40,134 nt of DNA, from positions 1 through 40,134 of the IMG/VR virus record IMGVR_UViG_3300030382_001255. The stretch is one strand, 5' to 3'. The stretch is from a virus. This document shows, piece after piece, positions 1,945-32,708 of the stretch. Every line of letters begins with the position of its first letter. The stretch's first letter is position 1. A program made the position numbers and the translations under genes. The notes beneath the pieces were generated by a model. It did no database searches. It was not told where the DNA came from and worked only from the letters and a program-made list of their open reading frames with translations.

Positions 1945-4900
1945 TTACTTGTTTTTATAATCTAAAAGTCTTTGTATAGCTTCTTCATCTCCTACTTCTG
2001 TGTAGTGTTCTATTTGATTATTAATGAATTGTTTTTTGAGTATGCTATCTCTAGTCGAAACTTGACTTTCTGCAAAACCTTTAGCTGTCCTTAAAGCTAT
2101 ATTAATCCGTTTATGGATCTTCTTATATAATTTAGGATCTAAGTTAACTGAACCTTTTTTGATCTCTTTACGGAATTGCTTACCATCAATAGAGTTCATA
2201 ATCTTACGAAGTTCACCTCTAAACCATTTACTCTTACCCATATATTCAGTAATTTCAGATCGTTCAAATGGTGTGTATTCAACTCCTCTACCATTAGTTC
2301 TTAATTGTGGTCTACCATTATATTCAATGTCTATAATGAATTGTTTCTCAGGACTAATAGCATCACCTTGTTTAAACCAAGGGGAATAAACATTAACTGC
2401 ACGTTGCCAGAAGCCTTCAACCTCACCTACTTTACCACCATCAACCCAGTCATAAAGATCAGGTAATCCTGATTTCATTCCAATATTTCTATTAGCTAGT
2501 AATTGGAAGAACTCTTGGTCTACTTCTTTTAGTTGAGGTTCTAATAATCTACCTAGTTCATTTCTCATACCACTCATAGGTGCAAAAGAACTACCAAAGC
2601 TTGCTCCCCATCTAGATAATGCTGCTGGGTTTCCAGCCAAGACATCATTCAATGGTTCTAAACCAGCTGTAAATGATTTATTAGTTAGGTTTGCAGATAA
2701 GATATACCCCATTTTATTGAGATGAGTTTCTAATGTTGGTGCATCTAAAGTATCGAAGTTATCCATAATGTCAGCTGTTAAAGCTAACCAATCAGAAATA
2801 CCTCCCATATTGTCATAGCTATACCATTTACCATCCCAACCTTTATAATGTCTAGGTTTCCAGCCTGCTTCTCTTCTTACCTTTTGTCTAGTTTTATCAT
2901 ATATACCATTGCCATGTAGGCTATCTGTAGTGAATAAACCTACAGCACCCATAACAGTCAAAGCTCCAATAGCCTTTCTACCTTTAAGTTCAGCTCTTAT
3001 AGTTTCATAAGCAACGAATTTATTCTCATCTAAAGGTATTCCTCTTGCAGTGAGTAATTCATCTACCTTAGCTTCAGTTACACCTTCAGCAACTCCTGTT
3101 TTAAATGCATTAACATCTTTAATGAAAAGACCTAGTGGGTTATGACTACCACTAAATGCAAGCATATTCATAGATGTTTTAGGGAACATCAAGAAAGGTT
3201 TTACTACAGGAGCACGTCTAATTAATTCACTTAAAGCATCAACGGATTTATTATCTAAGTTCATAGCAATCTCTCTACTTGCGTATTCGACTGCTTTATT
3301 AGTTATGAATCCTTTATCATCAAACATCTGATCATATACACCATCAGATATTTTCTTAAGATGATCAGGGGTTAGTTTTTCTCCATTCCTTATAACCTTG
3401 TCATAAGCCATACCTCTAGCTTCAATGTTTCCTATAAAGGATCTAGTGAAACCATCAAATGCTGTCATACCATTAGCACTAAATCTAAGCCAAGGATGCT
3501 CAGCCATATCATTCATCGCCTCTATTTGATTCACTAAAACAGAAGGACCAAACATGTCTTCACCTTCTTTAGCATCAGCAAATGAACGTAGTATCCTCAT
3601 CGTGTCGTCATTCTTACGTGCAATATCATCACGCATGATATATCCAACAGAACCTGGATCTCTAGCAGCACGACTATATACCTGTTTCATATGAGTAAAC
3701 GCTTTCTGAAGCGTATCAACCATACCAACGTTATACATATAACTTGCACGTCTAAGTGTTGCTGTATCTCCATGTAGCATTGCACCTGCAAAAGTAGCAA
3801 TAGGACGTTCAATCATCAAAGCTAAGTTAGAAGCACCTGCTTTTAAAGGAGTACCAACTGAAGATAAAACAGAGTTATAGATATTTGACCACATACCTTG
3901 TGTCCAAGCTGAAGGCATATCAGGTCTAAAATCAATTAAAGCTTTTTTAAATACACCAGTTGTATTTCTGATGTAGTCATTCAAAGCAGATACCGTCGAA
4001 ACCTTTCCATCTGTTACTTCATAAGCCAGCATTAAAGGTCCAAGTAAATCAGGACGTTCTGCTTTTACAGCTCTTAAGGTATCAATAGTTTGTTTTGACT
4101 CTTTTTGTATACGTGCTAAGGCTTTTAATGTATCATTTTTCTCATTTTTAATTGCAGCCAGGGCATCTTTACCCTTGATGTCATTTATATCTACACGTTT
4201 CCAAAGGTTTAGCATATTCAAAGCTCTACCTCTAGCGTAAGAAGTCGTACCTTTGATCTGCATTAAGTACTGAAGACGATCTAAGATCTGATCTTGAGCA
4301 CGTTGTACAGTACCAACTTTGTCGGCATATAATCTTCCACCTTCTGCCATATCAGAAACTTGACCTGCTAAAGATGTACCTACATATGCTTGAGCACGGG
4401 CAATATCCATATTGATGAAATCATTAGAATATTTCTTAATTGCCTGCATTACACCAGCATAAGCTTCATCATTAAGTACTCTTGCTCCTGTACTTACATC
4501 TGCACCTGAGAATGATTTCATAAAGAATTTCATCTCATCTACATCTAATTTATATAGGTCAGCAGCTATATCTATACCAGCTTGTACAATCTCTTCGTGA
4601 CTTAGGTATTTACCATTACTTGCTTTATATCCATACTTAGAATCTTTTAGTAGATCAGCAGCTTTAGTGATGAGTTTATGTCCAGCATCATTCCCATTCA
4701 CAACATAATCCATTGCTCCTGGTGTCATTACTGAACCAACTCTTCCGTCAATCGTATCGACATTATTCATGATCTTAGCTTGATCAACAGAAGCTCCAAA
4801 GACTCCACTAGGATCACCAGTTCTTACACCTGATTCTCCGTAGTCAAAGGCATCATGTATACCGAGTGTTGGTTCTTTTAATGTGTCAACCTTGGAGAAT

Positions 4901-6384
4901 TTATTTAGTTGCTCATTAGGCTCCCAGTAGATTTTTACTTGGTGTAGACGTTTACCTTTGCCAGCTAACTTACCACCAACATGCGTGAACCCACCATAAC
5001 CTTGCTCCGTTAAAGTCTCTTTTAAAGTGCCAACTATATCTTGGAACTCACTTCTAGTTACATTCCAATCTTGAGAAGTATCTCTTAACTTATCTATTAA
5101 ATTACCAAGAGTTAATTCCTCTTTGTCAAAATCTTTTACGAGTTCAACAGCTTCATCTATCCATGCATCTTCTCTATAAGCTGCAGCATTTTGAAGTAAG
5201 CCTAAAGTACCTTCGTCTAAAGGTTGATCTAAATCATAGAAGTTAACAGGTGCTCCCTCACTTACTTGATAAACAGTTTTAAGAGCATCAGGTCCAGCAG
5301 ATTTAGCGTTTTTTTTTTGATACTTGTTAGCAGTTGTAAGATCATCTGTTGTGTATAAACCTTGTCCATATATCCCAGTATCACTAGAATATTGTCCAGC
5401 GTCGTTTAATTCAAATTCATCAGCTGCGCCATGATAGAACTCACCTTTACCTCTAGTATCAGGAAGTTCTGAATTAAGTTTATCTAGTTTGACTTCACCT
5501 ACTTCAGTTAGTTGATCATAACGTCTCTTAGCTGATTGTAGTGTTGCGTTTTCAACTGGGTCTGTAGCAAGGTCTGGTTCTTGCATACTCTTTAAGATAG
5601 TAGCCGCCTTCTCATTCTCAGGAACCCATTGAGTAGCTTTATCAATTCCTTTTAAAGACTTAGTTAATTTACCTGCACCAACCAATACGTCAGCAGCAAA
5701 TCCAACACCTAAACCTTCCATTATATTCTTCTTTCTTTTTATATCAGGTTCATCATCATCTAACGTTGCCCAATCATTTGATACCCAACCATATGTATTT
5801 GGCCAAGTCTGTTTCAACATGCCTAAAGCATTATGATCTCTCTCTTGTACAGGAGCTATAGCATCAGCTATTACACCTGAACCACCAGCTAAGCCAGTCT
5901 TTGCAAACCATCTAAAGAAGACATCATTACCTAGTTTCCAGTTTCTTGCTGCATGAGCTTTAGTTGCAACACCACCTAATCCTTTTGTTATGAAGATAGT
6001 AGGTACTACTACTGAAGATATTTCTCTGATGGATTGTGTTACTTCGTTTTCAAATTCAGGGATGTTTGGTAAGTCTAAAACTTCTCCTGGCATTACTGTG
6101 TTATATAAGCTAATACCCCAATCAAGCGTACCTGTTGGTATAGCTAAAGCAGCTTCTGCAGTAGTTTTTAGAGCGTTACCTTCTTCCTTTTCTTGTTGTG
6201 GAGCTTCTTCCGTAGAAGTAGCTTGTTGTTGAGGTTGTGATTCTTGAGTAGGCGTCTCCGTAGAAACTTCAGGAATAGGATCTTCAATAGTTGAAGCGTC
6301 TATTTGCCGTTGCATTTCATTGACATCATCTTCGTCAAATGAACCATACTCACTTAAATCAACCTCAAACGGTTGATCTTCCAT
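1945..6384 (-). CDS. Internal virion (ejection) protein, T7 gp16-like, with ART-like segment
   Basis: A very large protein (1479 aa) between gp15 and the tail fibre, the T7 position of gp16, which is ejected into the cell and spans the envelope during DNA entry. The first 75 residues are acidic and Gln/Glu-rich. I see no lytic transglycosylase domain of the kind at the T7 gp16 N-terminus. Residues about 313-497 instead resemble an ADP-ribosyltransferase fold: FYHG near 316, GQGLYTTDD near 341, GYGG near 462 and HQVKIYW near 481. Several hydrophobic stretches follow in the C-terminal half. The gene starts 3 bases after the gp15 stop. The gp16 assignment rests on position, size and the marine podovirus pattern; the ART-like part is inference from motifs. 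Confidence 0.8.
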   Translation of the reverse strand: MEDQPFEVDLSEYGSFDEDDVNEMQRQIDASTIEDPIPEVSTETPTQESQPQQQATSTEEAPQQEKEEGNALKTTAEAALAIPTGTLDWGISLYNTVMPGEVLDLPNIPEFENEVTQSIREISSVVVPTIFITKGLGGVATKAHAARNWKLGNDVFFRWFAKTGLAGGSGVIADAIAPVQERDHNALGMLKQTWPNTYGWVSNDWATLDDDEPDIKRKKNIMEGLGVGFAADVLVGAGKLTKSLKGIDKATQWVPENEKAATILKSMQEPDLATDPVENATLQSAKRRYDQLTEVGEVKLDKLNSELPDTRGKGEFYHGAADEFELNDAGQYSSDTGIYGQGLYTTDDLTTANKYQKKNAKSAGPDALKTVYQVSEGAPVNFYDLDQPLDEGTLGLLQNAAAYREDAWIDEAVELVKDFDKEELTLGNLIDKLRDTSQDWNVTRSEFQDIVGTLKETLTEQGYGGFTHVGGKLAGKGKRLHQVKIYWEPNEQLNKFSKVDTLKEPTLGIHDAFDYGESGVRTGDPSGVFGASVDQAKIMNNVDTIDGRVGSVMTPGAMDYVVNGNDAGHKLITKAADLLKDSKYGYKASNGKYLSHEEIVQAGIDIAADLYKLDVDEMKFFMKSFSGADVSTGARVLNDEAYAGVMQAIKKYSNDFINMDIARAQAYVGTSLAGQVSDMAEGGRLYADKVGTVQRAQDQILDRLQYLMQIKGTTSYARGRALNMLNLWKRVDINDIKGKDALAAIKNEKNDTLKALARIQKESKQTIDTLRAVKAERPDLLGPLMLAYEVTDGKVSTVSALNDYIRNTTGVFKKALIDFRPDMPSAWTQGMWSNIYNSVLSSVGTPLKAGASNLALMIERPIATFAGAMLHGDTATLRRASYMYNVGMVDTLQKAFTHMKQVYSRAARDPGSVGYIMRDDIARKNDDTMRILRSFADAKEGEDMFGPSVLVNQIEAMNDMAEHPWLRFSANGMTAFDGFTRSFIGNIEARGMAYDKVIRNGEKLTPDHLKKISDGVYDQMFDDKGFITNKAVEYASREIAMNLDNKSVDALSELIRRAPVVKPFLMFPKTSMNMLAFSGSHNPLGLFIKDVNAFKTGVAEGVTEAKVDELLTARGIPLDENKFVAYETIRAELKGRKAIGALTVMGAVGLFTTDSLHGNGIYDKTRQKVRREAGWKPRHYKGWDGKWYSYDNMGGISDWLALTADIMDNFDTLDAPTLETHLNKMGYILSANLTNKSFTAGLEPLNDVLAGNPAALSRWGASFGSSFAPMSGMRNELGRLLEPQLKEVDQEFFQLLANRNIGMKSGLPDLYDWVDGGKVGEVEGFWQRAVNVYSPWFKQGDAISPEKQFIIDIEYNGRPQLRTNGRGVEYTPFERSEITEYMGKSKWFRGELRKIMNSIDGKQFRKEIKKGSVNLDPKLYKKIHKRINIALRTAKGFAESQVSTRDSILKKQFINNQIEHYTEVGDEEAIQRLLDYKNK
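4894..5448 (-). other. ADP-ribosyltransferase-like segment within gp16
   Basis: Codons for residues about 313-497 of gp16. The motif order matches the HYE-type ART fold: a first strand with FYHG (His318), a GIYGQGLYTTDD block with Tyr344 followed by ...ANKY, a late GYGG turn and a final strand HQVKIYWEP. The last catalytic position, normally Glu, appears to be Gln482, so the site may be altered or inactive. This is pattern recognition, not a profile hit. Confidence 0.45.
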
Positions 6385-6387
6385 TAG

Positions 6388-9105
6388 TTATTTCCTTATA
6401 GGACAGTGTGATATATCTCCTGTTTGCTTATATTGACTGAGTTGATAGTTACATATATCCTCGTCAGTAAGCTCAGGCGCATCTCCTAGGTATTGATTAA
6501 TTACATCGTTTATAGCATTAGATGCCTCATCTTCTAATATCTGAGGAGTTTGGGTTAATGGCTCTACTAAAGATTCTTGTAAGACATTCCCAGCATCAAT
6601 ATTCATAGCATCACTTACACCGCTTTCGACTATCTGATTAATAGTATTAGCAAACTCTACTGTGTTTTCACCAAGCCAGTTATACCCTTCACCAAAGAAG
6701 TCTTTCATATTTATACCTGTCTGTATAAGTTCTCTACCTATATCTTTAGTACGAGTAATCATATGTAGTTTAAATTTTCCAGCTGCCTCACCTACTCTAT
6801 CCCAGTTAACAGCTCCACTTGTAGAAGGTGGTATTGTGAGAGCACCTAAGTCCTCTTCAGTTAAACCATAGTTAAATGCTATAGAGGGGTTGGCTGTGAA
6901 AAATTCAGTAGAAGCTGCTATATCTCCATAATCGAAATTATTCTCTTCGGACCATTTAAATACTTCTTCTCCTAAACCATTAGGGAAAAGCTCTAGGTTT
7001 GGTAGTCCTTCTTTAGAGGCAATAAGTCCCCAGACGCGTGAACTAGAAGGGAATGTCTTATTCCATATAGTAACGTTATCTGCTTTAGAGGCATTGTTAT
7101 CAAACTTCTCTATAGAAGGTGGCTTATTACCTAGCGTTGGTAAGCCATGTAGCTGTAAGACATCATTCATTATGTCAAACTTACTCCTCTTACCATCAGC
7201 GAGGTGGTTATATAGGGTATCTATTTCACCTGGGTAATCAAAAGAAGCAGGGTTAGCATTAGTCTTTAGGTAATCACCTAATGACGTTATTAGCTCCTCC
7301 TTATCAATAAGTTTGCCTATATTTTCTTTGGTTAAGATAGTCTCCTTATATTCGTCCAATACCTCTTTCTGTCTTTTAACCTCTGCGTTGTGCAGTTTTA
7401 GACTCTTCTTAAGTTGTTTTTTAGTAAGAGTACCAGGGATATTAATGTAGCCGGTTTCATTGAAGTTTTTTCTAGAACTTGTATAAGTATCTAACCAACT
7501 TAACGTAGCTTGCCTAGCAAAATCAGCAGGGTTAGGGTGTTCGTTTGCTATAGCTGTAGCAAGGAATGCGTCAAACTTTGTTCTAGTGTAACGCTCCATA
7601 GGTTTAACTGTACGATTCTTTTTATCTATACCTCCTTGGTTAATTTTATAGGCTATAGCTGTGTTTATCTCTTCTATATATTCTTTAACTGGACCACCAG
7701 CTTGAGCATTAGTAAGTTGTGTAGCAAATTTTGAGAACCTTTCATCATTTTGAATTTGGCTACTGAATTTAGAAAGCTCCTTAAGAGTTAACGTACCGTT
7801 TCTCATTTTCTCTTCAGCTTGACCTAGCTCTATTAGGTAAGCGTCACCTTTAACAAAGTTACTTATATGCTTATCTATCATCGAAAATTCATAACCAGGA
7901 TATTTCTTTTGCAGTTTGCTTTGCTCGCTCCTTAAGAATCGTATTACTTCCTTTTCATCCATATCCTTTGTTTGCCCTAAGACATCTTTTTGTGCCTTAC
8001 TAGCTGCAGCCTTTTCTTTTGCTGTTTCAACCTTATCATTTTCTGTAACAGCTTCATCCAAAGCTTCCTGTAGCTTTAGATATCTAGTTGGCCATACCTT
8101 TTTAAGTGGCTTCATTTCACCTGTAGTAGGGTCTTTCACCAACTGTTCACCCATTGCATCTAGATCTGTTTGACCAAACTCTCCTGTATCCATCTGTCCT
8201 GTGATGACTTTTATGGTTTCATCTAAAGCTTGCTCATTAGTTAAAGCTTTCTTAGGGTTTTTAGGATCTACAGTTAGACGTATTGCTTGATATAAATCAT
8301 TAAAAGAAGAACCTTCTTTAGCACTATGGTTAGCATCACGGAAAGTATCTTTAGCATCTTCTTTATCTTTAAATGATCTTTCAACAGCATCTATATTTTT
8401 ATATTGCTGGTACAGTTCACTTTGACTTACTATAGCTGTCTCAAAAAAACCACCTTTCTCAGCTTTTATTTCAGCACTGACACCAGTTAAATTATTTAAT
8501 TTTATATATTCCTTTCTTAATTCCTTCATTGCAACTTGCTTTTTTTGCAAGGTATTTGCCTTTTTAGGTGTGAACTCTTTTCCATTTAGGATTACTGTAA
8601 GTTCATCATTTTTTAACATCTCACCTTCAAGCCAGGCTTTATAGTTCTTACCTGCTACGACTGATCTACGTGCAGTGAATGTAAATAAAGCATCCCCTCC
8701 TAAACCTCGTATTTTTTTAGCTAAGTCATAGTCACCAGTTTCATCAAGTATTTCTCTAGCAGCATCTTGAGTTTGGGTTTTATGCTCATTTAACTGCTTT
8801 TTACCTTCTTCATACTCAGCTTTTTTTTCTGAAGTGATGGAGCTTATACCTTCATTTTCCATCCTCTCCATTTCATATTCATCAGCCAAGGCTAAAGCTT
8901 CTATATTTTCTTTTTCCTTTCGTTCTTCAGCTTTAGCTACTAACTCTTCAGATAGCTTTGTATTGAAGTTAGATGCAAGTTTTAATAGTCTATCTTGACT
9001 ACTATCTTGATACTGAGTTTTCGTTTCTCTTCGTTGAGCTTTACGATTTATGTTGCCAAATTCATTGTCTGTGAATCTAGCCATTGATTCCTTAACGCTA
9101 CTCAT
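6388..9105 (-). CDS. Internal virion (ejection) protein, T7 gp15-like
   Basis: A 905-residue, strongly charged and mostly alpha-helical protein with long Lys/Glu-rich stretches (for example residues 55-125 and 340-380), which suggests coiled coil. It lies between the gp14-like gene and gp16, matching T7 gp15, one of the three inner-core proteins ejected with the genome. No enzymatic motif is visible. The C-terminus contains C-N-Y-Q and S-H-C-P. It starts with ATG 2 bases after the gp14 stop and ends 3 bases before the gp16 start, so it is a tightly packed late operon gene. The call rests on position, length and composition. Confidence 0.75.
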   Translation of the reverse strand: MSSVKESMARFTDNEFGNINRKAQRRETKTQYQDSSQDRLLKLASNFNTKLSEELVAKAEERKEKENIEALALADEYEMERMENEGISSITSEKKAEYEEGKKQLNEHKTQTQDAAREILDETGDYDLAKKIRGLGGDALFTFTARRSVVAGKNYKAWLEGEMLKNDELTVILNGKEFTPKKANTLQKKQVAMKELRKEYIKLNNLTGVSAEIKAEKGGFFETAIVSQSELYQQYKNIDAVERSFKDKEDAKDTFRDANHSAKEGSSFNDLYQAIRLTVDPKNPKKALTNEQALDETIKVITGQMDTGEFGQTDLDAMGEQLVKDPTTGEMKPLKKVWPTRYLKLQEALDEAVTENDKVETAKEKAAASKAQKDVLGQTKDMDEKEVIRFLRSEQSKLQKKYPGYEFSMIDKHISNFVKGDAYLIELGQAEEKMRNGTLTLKELSKFSSQIQNDERFSKFATQLTNAQAGGPVKEYIEEINTAIAYKINQGGIDKKNRTVKPMERYTRTKFDAFLATAIANEHPNPADFARQATLSWLDTYTSSRKNFNETGYINIPGTLTKKQLKKSLKLHNAEVKRQKEVLDEYKETILTKENIGKLIDKEELITSLGDYLKTNANPASFDYPGEIDTLYNHLADGKRSKFDIMNDVLQLHGLPTLGNKPPSIEKFDNNASKADNVTIWNKTFPSSSRVWGLIASKEGLPNLELFPNGLGEEVFKWSEENNFDYGDIAASTEFFTANPSIAFNYGLTEEDLGALTIPPSTSGAVNWDRVGEAAGKFKLHMITRTKDIGRELIQTGINMKDFFGEGYNWLGENTVEFANTINQIVESGVSDAMNIDAGNVLQESLVEPLTQTPQILEDEASNAINDVINQYLGDAPELTDEDICNYQLSQYKQTGDISHCPIRK

Positions 9106-9107
9106 AG

Positions 9108-9818
9108 TTATGATTTATAGGTTGTTTTGGGTTTAAGACTTCTGTATTTGTCCTGCGCACTTAGGAAATTAGTTCCTAAACCTAAAGCTAGATTAATAGG
9201 TGAATCCTGTTCTATAAGTTCACTATCATGCAAGGTTGGTCTTGTACCAGGTATAGGTCTACCAGCAGCTTGTTTAACTTCATTAATATGGTTTTGACGT
9301 TTCATTGCTTCTAATCTCATCTCACTATCTAAAGTAGATGTAGCAAGTTGTCCAGAAAGCTTTGCACCTAAAGATGCCATCTTAAAACCATGTTCAAGGA
9401 CAGCAGCTCTTGACTTACCACCTGAACGTCTACCAGTTTGCTCACCATGTTCTACAGACATCATCTTTGCATAACTAGCATAAGCTTGATTATTACTATC
9501 AGTAATTGCATTCCATGATGCTATTTGGTTCTTAGCTATTGTTTTCATAGCCTGAGCATGGAGAGTATCAGCAGCAGCATCAGTGTCTGCATTCTCACTT
9601 TGGAATACTATATTTGCATTATCAAAGTCAGTATTCCATTTGAAGATATCATCATGATGTTGATCTATAATATTTTGATTTTTTCTGGATACTTTCTCAC
9701 GATTACCGAAGAAACCTAAACCTGTTTTAATTGCATCTAAGCCAAATTGTTGGGCTGAGACGTTCCAGGCATCACGTTTGTCAAAACTGTCTGATCCTGA
9801 TTTTTTTGGAGGGCACAT
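9108..9818 (-). CDS. Internal virion protein, T7 gp14-like
   Basis: A 236-residue protein starting MCPPKK, a start also seen in the gp7.3-like gene of this phage. In T7, gp14 forms the channel segment in the outer membrane during ejection. The sequence is helical and Ala/Gln/Asn-rich, with a Gly-containing stretch (GFFGNRE) near residue 36. Its first 82 bases overlap the end of the gp13-like ORF in another frame, and the start lies just ahead of an A7 run that could act as a slip site. Assignment is by gene order and general character; sequence conservation in this family is low. Confidence 0.7.
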   Translation of the reverse strand: MCPPKKSGSDSFDKRDAWNVSAQQFGLDAIKTGLGFFGNREKVSRKNQNIIDQHHDDIFKWNTDFDNANIVFQSENADTDAAADTLHAQAMKTIAKNQIASWNAITDSNNQAYASYAKMMSVEHGEQTGRRSGGKSRAAVLEHGFKMASLGAKLSGQLATSTLDSEMRLEAMKRQNHINEVKQAAGRPIPGTRPTLHDSELIEQDSPINLALGLGTNFLSAQDKYRSLKPKTTYKS

Positions 9819-10264
9819 AATGGTATTTTACAAAATTCTAAAAATGGTAAATTATTGGGACCGAATGTGATCTCCCTTAGAAACTTAAATCCCAAAAATC
9901 TAAGGAGCTTTATATGTGTACCGTTTCGTTTATCAACAACATTCCAAATCAAATTATTTGGTCTACTGTTTACGTAACGTAGTTTATCTTTAGCAAATTG
10001 AAGTGGATACTCTTTAACAAGTGGTGAACATAACATCCATATTTTTCCATCTGTTGCAGTACCACCTATAGCGGCAGCCTTGCCGTTAGGGGTTTGCCAA
10101 TAGCATGCATTCTCCGATATTAGAGATGACATGACTATAGACATAACAGAGTCATGACCATAGCCTTCCATACATTCTCGTTTATCAGCAAAGAGTAAAT
10201 CAGAAGCCACTGATATAGCAGCTTCTGGGGTTAGTGGATAATAGTTTTTAGGTAGATTAAGCAC
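9737..10264 (-). CDS. gp13-like virion assembly protein, acetyltransferase-like
   Basis: A 175-residue protein between the tail tube gene gp12 and gp14, the position of T7 gp13. The motif FLGFKFLREITFGPNNLPFL near residues 122-141 is typical of phage gp13-like proteins with a GNAT-like fold. The ORF opens with GTG at 10264 inside the last codons of gp12, an 8-base overlap; no ATG lies near this start. The conserved part ends around EFCKI, and the last 25 or so residues are read from the overlap with gp14. That tail contains the heptamer A AAA AAT in this frame, so a -1 shift would continue directly into gp14. Function in T7: a minor protein needed for correct virions. Confidence 0.65.
   Translation of the reverse strand: MLNLPKNYYPLTPEAAISVASDLLFADKRECMEGYGHDSVMSIVMSSLISENACYWQTPNGKAAAIGGTATDGKIWMLCSPLVKEYPLQFAKDKLRYVNSRPNNLIWNVVDKRNGTHIKLLRFLGFKFLREITFGPNNLPFLEFCKIPLCALQKNQDQTVLTNVMPGTSQPNNLA
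9799..9808 (-). promoter_or_regulatory. Possible -1 frameshift site A AAA AAT joining gp13 and gp14
   Basis: A run of seven A (minus strand, positions 9807-9801) is read in the gp13 frame as CAA AAA AAT, which fits the X XXY YYZ slippery pattern. Slipping back one base gives the gp14 frame (CCA AAA AAA TCA). The run sits 11 bases inside gp14. A long A run is also prone to sequencing or replication slips, so the functional claim is weak. Confidence 0.3.
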
Positions 10265-22382: not shown

Positions 22383-23648
22383 TTAGTGGACCTCAGCCCA
22401 ATTCATCCCTGCCTTCGACTCTGCAGCGATGTTTACTCTAAGGTTGTAATATTCTCCTGCTTGTGCAGCAGATAATTCAAGTAAGAACTTGAGATCATCT
22501 ACATCTTTTTCTTCACATTCAAATTGTAATTCATCATGAATGAATGCAAGTTGTTTAGCAGTAGGTGGTAAGTGTTCATGTGTGATAAGCATCCAACGCT
22601 TCGCCAAAACGGCTGAAGATCCTTGGATTAAATAGTTTAATGCTTTGTGTTGACTTTCGACGATGAGGGTTCTTCCGTCGATAGCCAAGATCTTGCCTGT
22701 AGTAGACCGCTCCTTAACAGCCGATAACAGCTCTGCCAATCCAGGGATGGCTTTGATGAAGGCGGCACGAACTTCCTTTCCCTTAGCTTTTGCTTTAGTT
22801 CTAGGTAGTTGCTTATCAACTGAGCATCCGATTTTTTCATCTCCAGCTCCATATAAAAATGCGTAGGTTACTGTCTTAACTTGTTTACGAGTGATCCCGA
22901 TCTTGTCAGCGTTCGTCTGATGGATGTCTCCATTGAGAAGCACCTCTGCATATCTACCTCCGTCATATCTGCCGAGATAGTGAGCAAGCATCCGTAACTC
23001 CACACCGCTAAGATCAGCACCAACCATTCGTAGACCTGGACTAGCCAGGAATAATTTCCTGAATCTTTCATCACTAGGCGTCTGCCCTAAATTCGGCTTA
23101 CGATGGGCACATCTAAATGTGTTCGTAGCTACTGAACAGTGATGATGAATTCGACTAGACGTCGTACATAGCTTGTTCCATGCGTTCACGCCTTCCGAGA
23201 TCATCCCCAATTTCTTGGTAATATCTAGACATTTCAGAAACAACAGAGCTATCTCCGATCCAATATCCTTCAATACAATCTCGTCGATTACTGGCTTCTT
23301 TGTCTTGGAGCTTTTTAATTTGGGAATCCAGCCATAATGTGTCTGTAGAATCCATGCAATATGATCTCTTGATGTTGGGTTAAGTTCTTTTAGTCTTTGT
23401 AACTCTGAACCTTCGACATATCCGAGTGTCCTGTTATCTCGTTTAGGAGTGAACAACGATCCGCCAATGAGAGGGTGTTTGTCTCGAAGTATTTTAGTAA
23501 GGTGTTCCAGTTCTCCTCTGAGAGTTTGTTCAAGTTCCCATGAAGATTTTTCATCAAAGTACCATCCATGAATTTCCTGTTGTGTAAGTATGTTTGCGAC
23601 TGAATGCTCTAAAGCAAGCCAGTCAGATAGGGGTGAAAGTGGTCGCAT
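22383..23648 (-). CDS. DNA polymerase, family A polymerase domain, separate ORF
   Basis: 421 residues from ATG 23648 holding the whole polymerase core: motif A MVGADLSGVELRMLA, motif B RKQVKTVTYAFLYGAG and motif C FIHDELQFE. The residue equal to E. coli Pol I Phe762 is Tyr, a variant linked in the literature to virulent phages. The exonuclease domain is in the preceding ORF, in the +1 frame, with a 40-base overlap. No ribosome binding site is seen before the ATG, which favours a frameshift or coupling over independent initiation. The two ORFs together are about 610 residues, near the size of marine podovirus polymerases, and lack room for the T7 thioredoxin-binding loop. Confidence 0.9.
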   Translation of the reverse strand: MRPLSPLSDWLALEHSVANILTQQEIHGWYFDEKSSWELEQTLRGELEHLTKILRDKHPLIGGSLFTPKRDNRTLGYVEGSELQRLKELNPTSRDHIAWILQTHYGWIPKLKSSKTKKPVIDEIVLKDIGSEIALLFLKCLDITKKLGMISEGVNAWNKLCTTSSRIHHHCSVATNTFRCAHRKPNLGQTPSDERFRKLFLASPGLRMVGADLSGVELRMLAHYLGRYDGGRYAEVLLNGDIHQTNADKIGITRKQVKTVTYAFLYGAGDEKIGCSVDKQLPRTKAKAKGKEVRAAFIKAIPGLAELLSAVKERSTTGKILAIDGRTLIVESQHKALNYLIQGSSAVLAKRWMLITHEHLPPTAKQLAFIHDELQFECEEKDVDDLKFLLELSAAQAGEYYNLRVNIAAESKAGMNWAEVH

Positions 23649-24145
23649 AATTTTGTTGTTACGGCTACATCTTGTGCGCAATATCTCTCCATCTCAGGAG
23701 ACCATTCTTGCCAATCAGTTGTTTTTCCAAACGCACCTTTGTATTCGTTGAGGCGATGACCCCATGCCTCTAAGCTATGACGACCAAGTAATTGGAGAGG
23801 CATATGCTTTAGCAAACCTCTATCATTTCTTTTGTAATCTATTTCTAAAAGGTTTGGATGAAAAAGACGTGATAAAAGCAGAGTGTCAACAACAACAGCA
23901 CTGGTAGAGAAAAAATGGTAGATCCCACGAATAGCTGGTAAATCAAAACCGATAATGTTGTGCCCGACAATAAAATCTGCACAAGCCAAGCGGGATAACC
24001 CCTCAGTGATTGAATACTTGTTATCACCACGTTCGTCATTAAATGTTTCAATTGCATCTGTTTCAGATTCATATATACAAAGACAATGGACTCGTGTTAG
24101 ATCACGTAGTAATCCATTTGTCTCAAGGTCAAATACGGCGATCAT
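23609..24145 (-). CDS. DNA polymerase 3'-5' exonuclease domain, separate ORF
   Basis: 178 residues from ATG 24145, which has GGAGA just upstream; a longer TTG start is less likely. Exonuclease motifs are complete: Exo I MIAVFDLETNGLL, Exo II VGHNIIGFDLPA and Exo III YCAQDVAVTTKL. In T7 this is the N-terminal domain of gp5. The ORF stops at 23609, 40 bases beyond the polymerase ATG. The residues after the frame change in the next ORF (SDWLALEHSVANILTQQE) continue naturally from HFHPYL, so the two look like one gene broken by a single shift at a C4 run. Confidence 0.88.
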   Translation of the reverse strand: MIAVFDLETNGLLRDLTRVHCLCIYESETDAIETFNDERGDNKYSITEGLSRLACADFIVGHNIIGFDLPAIRGIYHFFSTSAVVVDTLLLSRLFHPNLLEIDYKRNDRGLLKHMPLQLLGRHSLEAWGHRLNEYKGAFGKTTDWQEWSPEMERYCAQDVAVTTKLCDHFHPYLTGLL

Positions 24146-24332
24146 TTCTCCAAGTGAATGTCTTATCAACAAACTTGGATCTTTCGATTGCTTCTTTTGT
24201 TGGTGGGTGAGGTTTATTTATATTCTTTTGCCAATGTGGCACGAATTTTTTCTGTTGTTCTTCGTATTCGTACCACGGATGTTCGTATTGTTCAAAAATC
24301 TGTGGACGGGTTGAACTCTTCTTCAGCTTCAT
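24129..24332 (-). CDS. Hypothetical 67-aa protein between helicase and polymerase
   Basis: A 67-residue ORF from ATG 24332 (MKLKKSSTRPQIFEQYEHPW), rich in Lys, Trp and Tyr. It overlaps the primase/helicase end by 41 bases and the exonuclease start by 17 bases. T7-like phages carry small genes between 4 and 5; this one has no recognised family. The tight overlaps at both sides and lack of a competing reading frame favour a real gene. Confidence 0.55.
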   Translation of the reverse strand: MKLKKSSTRPQIFEQYEHPWYEYEEQQKKFVPHWQKNINKPHPPTKEAIERSKFVDKTFTWRNDRRI

Positions 24333-32258: not shown

Positions 32259-32603
32259 TCAGAAGTTTGAACAGAAGAATACATAATCTTGAAGACCTCG
32301 CTTCACAGCAAAGTAATCATGACTAAGCTCATTAGTCCAGACAGTTTCCCAGTCAATGTGAGATTGTATAAACATTGGTAGCTTAGATTCCAGTAAGTAA
32401 CCGCAATCATCAGCCATTTGTTCAGCAAACTCAGCACCTGTTTCATACTGTCCTTGATAAGATTCTTCGAACTGTTCAACTGTATCTATTCCATAGTCCA
32501 TGAGTTCACTAACAAACTCAGTGGATAATGTATCTATATATCCAAGAGAATTAATACTATCAGTAAGAATTTCTAGTGGAGATAAGAGAGTAGTTGATGA
32601 CAT
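32259..32603 (-). CDS. ArdA-like antirestriction protein
   Basis: 114 residues from ATG 32603; the longer frame would run into tRNA-Asp and is rejected. The region FEESYQGQYETGAEFAEQMADDCGYL near 62-87 followed by HIDWETVWTNELSHDYFAV matches the C-terminal half of ArdA proteins, acidic DNA mimics that block type I restriction enzymes (the role of Ocr in T7). The protein is acidic, as expected. It is shorter than classical ArdA (about 165 aa), keeping mainly the central and C-terminal part. It follows tRNA-Asp and a perfect hairpin. Confidence 0.78.
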   Translation of the reverse strand: MSSTTLLSPLEILTDSINSLGYIDTLSTEFVSELMDYGIDTVEQFEESYQGQYETGAEFAEQMADDCGYLLESKLPMFIQSHIDWETVWTNELSHDYFAVKRGLQDYVFFCSNF

Positions 32604-32615
32604 GTTTGAATGATA

Positions 32616-32634
32616 GATACTCTCAGTGAGTATC
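32616..32634 (-). ncRNA. Perfect hairpin between tRNA-Asp and the ArdA-like gene
   Basis: Arms GATACTC / GAGTATC with loop TCAGT, 3 bases after the tRNA 3' end and 13 bases before the ATG. It may guide cutting of the tRNA from the mRNA. Confidence 0.6.
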
Positions 32635-32637
32635 AAC

Positions 32638-32708
32638 GATCCTTGCGGGAATTGAACCCGCATTACTAGCGTGACAGGCTAGAGTCTTAACCGTTAGACC
32701 AAAGGATC
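32638..32708 (-). tRNA. tRNA-Asp (GUC)
   Basis: A 71-base tRNA. Acceptor arms GATCCTT and AAGGATC pair fully, the D arm is GTCTAACGGTTAAGAC, the anticodon arm is CTAGC-CTGTCAC-GCTAG with anticodon GTC (32675-32673), and the T arm is GCGGG-TTCAATT-CCCGC. CCA is not encoded. It is embedded between the KTSC gene and the ArdA-like gene in the early operon. It should be functional. Confidence 0.95.

Follow-up and report, generated by a model that had tools for sequence, protein, structure and literature searches.

This analysis concerns a gene of a marine T7-like phage that encodes an internal virion (ejection) protein of the T7 gp16 type with a predicted ADP-ribosyltransferase (ART) domain. The gene lies in a stretch of virus DNA of 40,134 nucleotides, comprising positions 1 to 40,134 of the IMG/VR virus record IMGVR_UViG_3300030382_001255 and called the window below. 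The carrier protein of 1479 residues is encoded by the open reading frame (ORF) 1945..6384(-) and matched PHROG 6651 with E=0 over residues 32-1473, in agreement with the first-pass annotation, which had named it an ejected gp16. The ART domain occupies residues 313-497 (4894..5448(-)) and was recognized by Pfam, AlphaFold2 and Foldseek. Together with a linker it makes up an inserted cassette of residues ~303-503 (4876..5478(-)), the site of which was empty in seven related contigs and occupied in contig L002.

The segment 4894-5448(-) translates exactly into the motif order that the first-pass annotation had read as that of an ART, namely FYHG (residues 316-319), GQGLYTTDD (341-349), GYGG (462-465) and HQVKIYW (481-487). 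The segment had relatives in ~30 IMG/VR contigs and in one contig of a Cyanobium bin, and no close homologue was present among 50,697 phage records. Conservation was assessed in a set of 31 homologous ART segments that were 37-79% identical to that of the window. His318, Gly340, Gly342, Tyr344, Tyr355, Glu376, His481, Val483, Ile485 and Tyr486 were invariant in all 31, as were the glycine-rich and TH positions GG464-465, TH467-468 and GG470-471. Since the motif residues are invariant at such a range of identity, the motifs are not a product of chance. The segments of L010, L011-L016 and L046 contained ~85 extra residues between the first helix and the VNFYDLDQ strand.

When the segments were scanned singly against Pfam and counted at E<=0.1, DUF3990 was matched, as the best family, by 30 of the 31 (best E 6.8e-7) and ART-PolyVal by 17 (best E 2.7e-4), while any other family was matched by two segments at most. 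DUF3990 is a member of the ART clan (PMC7955679), and the only recurrent families were those of ARTs. The window segment alone matched DUF3990 with E=1.4e-4 and ART-PolyVal with E=0.0077; for the L040 carrier, a DUF3990 score of 25.8 bits was recorded. The segment profile retrieved no ART when searched against PDB sequences, the relationship being too distant for sequence methods and visible to fold search only.

The structure of the domain was predicted by AlphaFold2 from 31 sequences, with a mean predicted local distance difference test score (pLDDT) of 85.8 and a predicted template modelling score (pTM) of 0.82. This model superseded an earlier poor one built from 16 sequences (pLDDT 62.7). 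The order of the secondary structure elements was E-E-H-E-E-(helices)-E-E. Against the viral models of BFVD, Foldseek returned 32 matches at E<=0.001 with a probability of 1.00, several of them named ART-PolyVal. In the PDB the best match was to the pre-ejectosome of cyanophage A4, chain B (E=7e-5, template modelling score 0.60). The weaker PDB matches were RES toxin (9r35, 6gw6), ParT, Arr-2, PARP4 and PARP2, each non-significant individually and all belonging to the ART superfamily. The fold had been put forward by the first-pass annotation as the test of its reading, and this confident model, which matches ART folds, strongly supports an ART fold for gp16 residues 313-497.

The A4 protein, A-4L ORF27L (PDB 9k3a chain B), is a cyanopodovirus ejection protein of the capsid core and likewise has an ART-like domain. 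Its own match to ART-PolyVal is weak (residues ~1424-1478, with the motif LYHGT...GSGTYFS), and direct profile comparisons of the window ART with the A4 domain were not significant (E 0.09; 0.32), so that the link between the two rests on Foldseek and on this weak match. The Foldseek alignment presumably covers exactly the A4 ART-like region. The A4 domain differs in lying near the C-terminus (residue ~1422 of 1717), in its very weak sequence similarity to the window (13%) and in its last strand, which reads DTVAIYNP/DTTLVINP in A4 and its Saffermanviridae relatives. The ORF27L gene (L055:20116-25269) is deposited as 'tail protein'; its ART-like region spans residues ~1422-1600 and is the part of the protein conserved in the Saffermanviridae Pf-WMP3, PP and LPP-2.

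The boundaries of the cassette were apparent from relatives lacking it. Seven contigs (L086-L092) carried an empty site and were 63-87% identical to the window across the adjoining 481 residues; the L086 protein reads ...YDQLTEIGEVKLGQVGEPTEPILGYHDAFDYGESG where the window has ~200 additional residues. The alignment with gp16 of cultured cyanopodoviruses likewise had a clean gap at the ART segment. When the N- and C-terminal parts of gp16 were searched separately, they were 28-47% and 26-51% identical, respectively, to cassette-free cyanophage proteins. In L002 the cassette was present, at 79% identity to that of the window. The first-pass annotation had placed the ART where T7 gp16 has its N-terminal transglycosylase; the empty-site relatives show it instead to be a dispensable insert between the N- and C-terminal parts. 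Replacement of the transglycosylase by the ART was ruled out, as cassette-free relatives have the same N-terminal part ahead of the site.

Among the carriers the ART was 37-79% identical, whereas their other parts, except in L002, were undetectable or mostly 20-24% identical. The ARTs of L003, L027 and L028, for example, were 73%, 62% and 58% identical to that of the window in proteins otherwise unrecognisable by BLASTP. The gene order gp14-gp15-gp16 was the same around ART carriers where examined. The guanine-plus-cytosine content of the cassette (0.37, against 0.33-0.39 in its surroundings) gave no mark of foreign origin. As the ART is conserved in carriers that are otherwise mostly unrecognisable, the cassette moves between ejection proteins, and judged by these comparisons the insert behaves as a mobile accessory cassette of such proteins.

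Other arrangements were also observed. Proteins of ~3,030 residues in the ejection-protein position of L032 (1597-10680) and L033 (1588-10680) contained two ARTs each, one a canonical ART-PolyVal and the other from the window's family, and that of L032 had an LPD22 domain in addition. In the Cyanobium-bin contig L054 (57-3647), which probably comes from a phage and was binned with a bacterium, an ART of the window's family was part of a 1196-residue virion protein with a portal-like PHROG match, adjoining a gene that weakly matched a gp16-type PHROG. A short separate ORF of 270 residues in L045 (5719-6531) encoded an ART of this family next to proteins almost without PHROG matches.

The active site was assigned from the alignments. 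His318 (5431..5433(-)) in strand 1 and Tyr344 of GQGLY (5353..5355(-)) in strand 2 were invariant in 31/31 segments and lay in predicted strands. The third catalytic position, in strand 5, was Gln482 (4939..4941(-)), a column with 28 Gln, 2 Lys and 1 Thr. A survey of relatives for Glu at this position, proposed in the first-pass annotation, found neither Glu nor Asp in any of the 31 segments; Lys was present in L013 and L035 and Thr in L054, as natural variants. The last strand of the family reads HQVKIYW/F-D/E-P, and an alignment anchored on FDP sets Q-V-K-I-Y-F-D-P against D-E-V-A-V-F-D-P of ART-PolyVal in L032, so that Gln482 falls at the position of the ART-PolyVal Asp/Glu on the final strand. 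The neighbouring His481 (4942..4944(-)), also invariant in 31/31, is a possible alternative active-site residue; it was considered as the third catalytic one, for which Gln482 is the better fit in the anchored alignment. One ART clade is named H-Y-[EDQ] (PMC7955679; PMC9503650), and His318-Tyr344-Gln482 therefore fits it. The ART-PolyVal triad is defined as H-Y-D (PMC5512222), with Asp in strand 5, where the window has Gln.

The first-pass annotation had correctly seen Gln at the last catalytic position and had suggested a binding-only domain, which does not follow. Gln is an accepted third residue in the H-Y-[EDQ] clade (PMC7955679) and is also found in the last strand of a true DUF3990 protein (L077, NQYVFATQEAL); it is thus no sign of a dead enzyme. 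The domain is likely to be catalytically active, as far as its residues allow this to be predicted. Several mono-ADP-ribosylating PARPs are active though they lack Glu.

We nevertheless considered that the fold might be kept in a catalytically dead domain, which would bind nicotinamide adenine dinucleotide (NAD+) or a host factor, or would act within the capsid core as a structural spacer. The complete absence of Glu/Asp from the third position (0/31), with Lys or Thr in three segments, speaks for a dead enzyme, and the A4 domain, which seems to be ordered within the pre-ejectosome, makes a structural role possible. However, the invariance of His318, Tyr344 (the NAD+-contacting residues in the clade) and the last-strand motif at 37-79% identity suggests that a ligand site was retained, and relatives that are 87% identical would not be expected to lack a structural part. 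This explanation is therefore regarded as unlikely, although it is the strongest of the alternatives.

The assignment of the carrier to T7 gp16-type proteins is based on long C-terminal homology and on its slot after gp14- and gp15-like genes. The conserved C-terminal region (residues 506-1479; 1948..4869(-)) resembled cyanopodovirus gp16, with 31-51% identity across 950-1010 residues to six such proteins and 26% identity over 560 residues to P-SSP7 gp16; the gp16 backbone was 26-51% identical to gp16 of cultured cyanopodoviruses. All relatives from cultured phages were cyanophages, and the remaining ones came from uncultured marine phages. Upstream of gp16 lie a gp14-like internal virion protein (9737..10264(-); PHROG 308, E=2.4e-30), an ORF of 236 residues and, between the gp14-like protein and gp16, a protein of 905 residues in the gp15 position (6388..9105(-)), which had no match in Pfam and PHROG scans. 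The N-terminal lytic transglycosylase of T7 gp16 was not found in the window protein by a Pfam scan, as the first-pass annotation had noticed. The phage also encodes a T7-type RNA polymerase, head, portal, tail and terminase proteins, ribonucleotide reductase, thymidylate synthase and an integrase. Its DNA polymerase is present as two overlapping ORFs for the polymerase and exonuclease parts (22383-24172(-)), either a natural split or an assembly frameshift, and a small protein at 32259-32663(-) matched anti-restriction PHROGs.

Based on these results, it was proposed that residues ~303-503 of gp16 are a mobile ART cassette of the H-Y-[EDQ] type, similar to DUF3990 and ART-PolyVal, that is injected and ADP-ribosylates a host macromolecule very early in infection. 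We regard this proposal as probable, with a fair measure of confidence. The gp16 protein with its ART would be kept in the capsid core until its ejection into the host together with the DNA, which would place the ART at the cytoplasmic side or the inner membrane. There it would use host NAD+ and attach ADP-ribose to a host macromolecule before phage genes are expressed, and host takeover would be favoured or a defence blocked. Ejection of the window protein is deduced by homology to T7, in which gp16 is ejected, residues 1-156 form a periplasmic, phage-specific transglycosylase and the cytoplasm of the host is reached by gp16-C (PMC8954989). By analogy with T7, and from a hydrophobic stretch ahead of the ART, residues 122-140 (5965..6021(-); Kyte-Doolittle 1.53 over 19 residues), the ART may plausibly lie in the cytoplasm. 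This candidate membrane-inserting segment is the strongest hydrophobic stretch in the N-terminal part of gp16 and occurs at the same place in several relatives. We infer that the ART acts as a catalyst and has a host target. Among injected polyvalent proteins ARTs are the commonest modifying domain, and the prototype is part of the virion RNA polymerase of a podovirus (PMC5512222). In a published survey, which found ARTs in only 3% of podoviruses, ~44% of phage ARTs occurred in contexts that suggest head packaging (PMC9503650).

Several points weigh against this proposal. The window segment scored 22.0 bits with DUF3990 and 17.4 bits with ART-PolyVal (PF18760), below the curated cut-offs of 32.2 and 31.2 bits, and membership in either family is for this reason not claimed. 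The third triad residue is neither Glu nor Asp and is variable, so that activity is not assured. The cytoplasmic placement relies on the T7 analogy, and the ART domain must unfold to pass through the tail channel. In addition, the analysis identified neither a target nor a gene for an antitoxin or an ADP-ribosylation partner.

The domain could also be an active ART that modifies nucleic acid, or one that merely consumes NAD+ as an NADase or phosphorylase, and leaves host proteins unmodified. RES toxins (9r35, 6gw6), of an NAD+-degrading family, are among the nearest solved folds outside phages. DNA- and NAD+-directed phage ARTs have been noted as well (PMC9503650). On the other hand, the T7 core contains four ordered subunits of gp16 (PMC8954989), and the few copies injected per cell would probably be too few for fast NAD+ depletion, while similar ARTs of polyvalent proteins are predicted protein modifiers (PMC5512222). 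We consider such an activity improbable. Self-modification during assembly, in which the ART would act in the virion-producing cell or on phage components, is very improbable: its gene is structural and a role against immune processes aimed at packaging components is possible (PMC9503650), but the ART sits in a protein class known for ejection, and an enzyme needed only late could have a separate gene.

The proposed injected ART cassette can be compared with several known systems. Like ART-PolyVal/Tox-ART-HYD2 (PF18760), exemplified by the ART of the virion RNA polymerase of the podovirus Roseovarius Plymouth podovirus 1 (PMC5512222), the window domain combines an ART fold and the H-Y part of the triad with a place in a large virion protein for which injection is predicted. 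It differs in having Gln where ART-PolyVal has Asp and GYGG where the L032 example has GYDG, and the carrier is a T7-type gp16 and not an N4-type RNA polymerase polyprotein. The HGS...GFYTT opening of DUF3990 (PF13151) is similar, and Gln is shared in the last strand. However, the window protein aligns with that family over the first ~60 positions only, the L077 protein is a small stand-alone bacterial one, and the window's ART family has its own motifs GGFTHxGG and FYDLDQ. In the gp14-gp15-gp16 ejection operon T7 gp16 takes the corresponding slot, and by homology it has the same role in DNA ejection; its transglycosylase at residues 1-156 and lack of an ART set it apart from the window protein with an ART at 313-497. 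The parallel with T4 Alt, drawn in the first-pass annotation, stands for function, as Alt is a head-packaged ART injected with DNA, and falls for family, as Alt is a free protein of the R-S-E clade with RNA polymerase as its known target. RNA polymerase as the target of the window ART would be only an analogy with Alt.

Virion-borne ARTs are already known; what is new is a swappable H-Y-Q ART cassette in a T7-type gp16, no description of which was found in the openly accessible literature searched. The best-known ejected ARTs are those of T4-like and N4-like phages. The presence or absence of the cassette among close relatives offers a natural comparison for what an injected ART does, and the ART-like domain in the solved A4 structure (9k3a) lets a pocket be inspected directly. 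An active window domain would be a tool for immediate-early takeover or anti-defence, with no need for transcription. A broader proposal, for and against which we find the case evenly balanced, is that marine T7-like phages swap an injected H-Y-Q ART as a plug-in cassette of their ejection proteins, an accessory takeover enzyme on the cytoplasmic end of the ejectosome that acts before gene expression. If so, host-takeover enzymes would have a general platform in podovirus ejection proteins, and the A4-type cyanophages would be an independent case.

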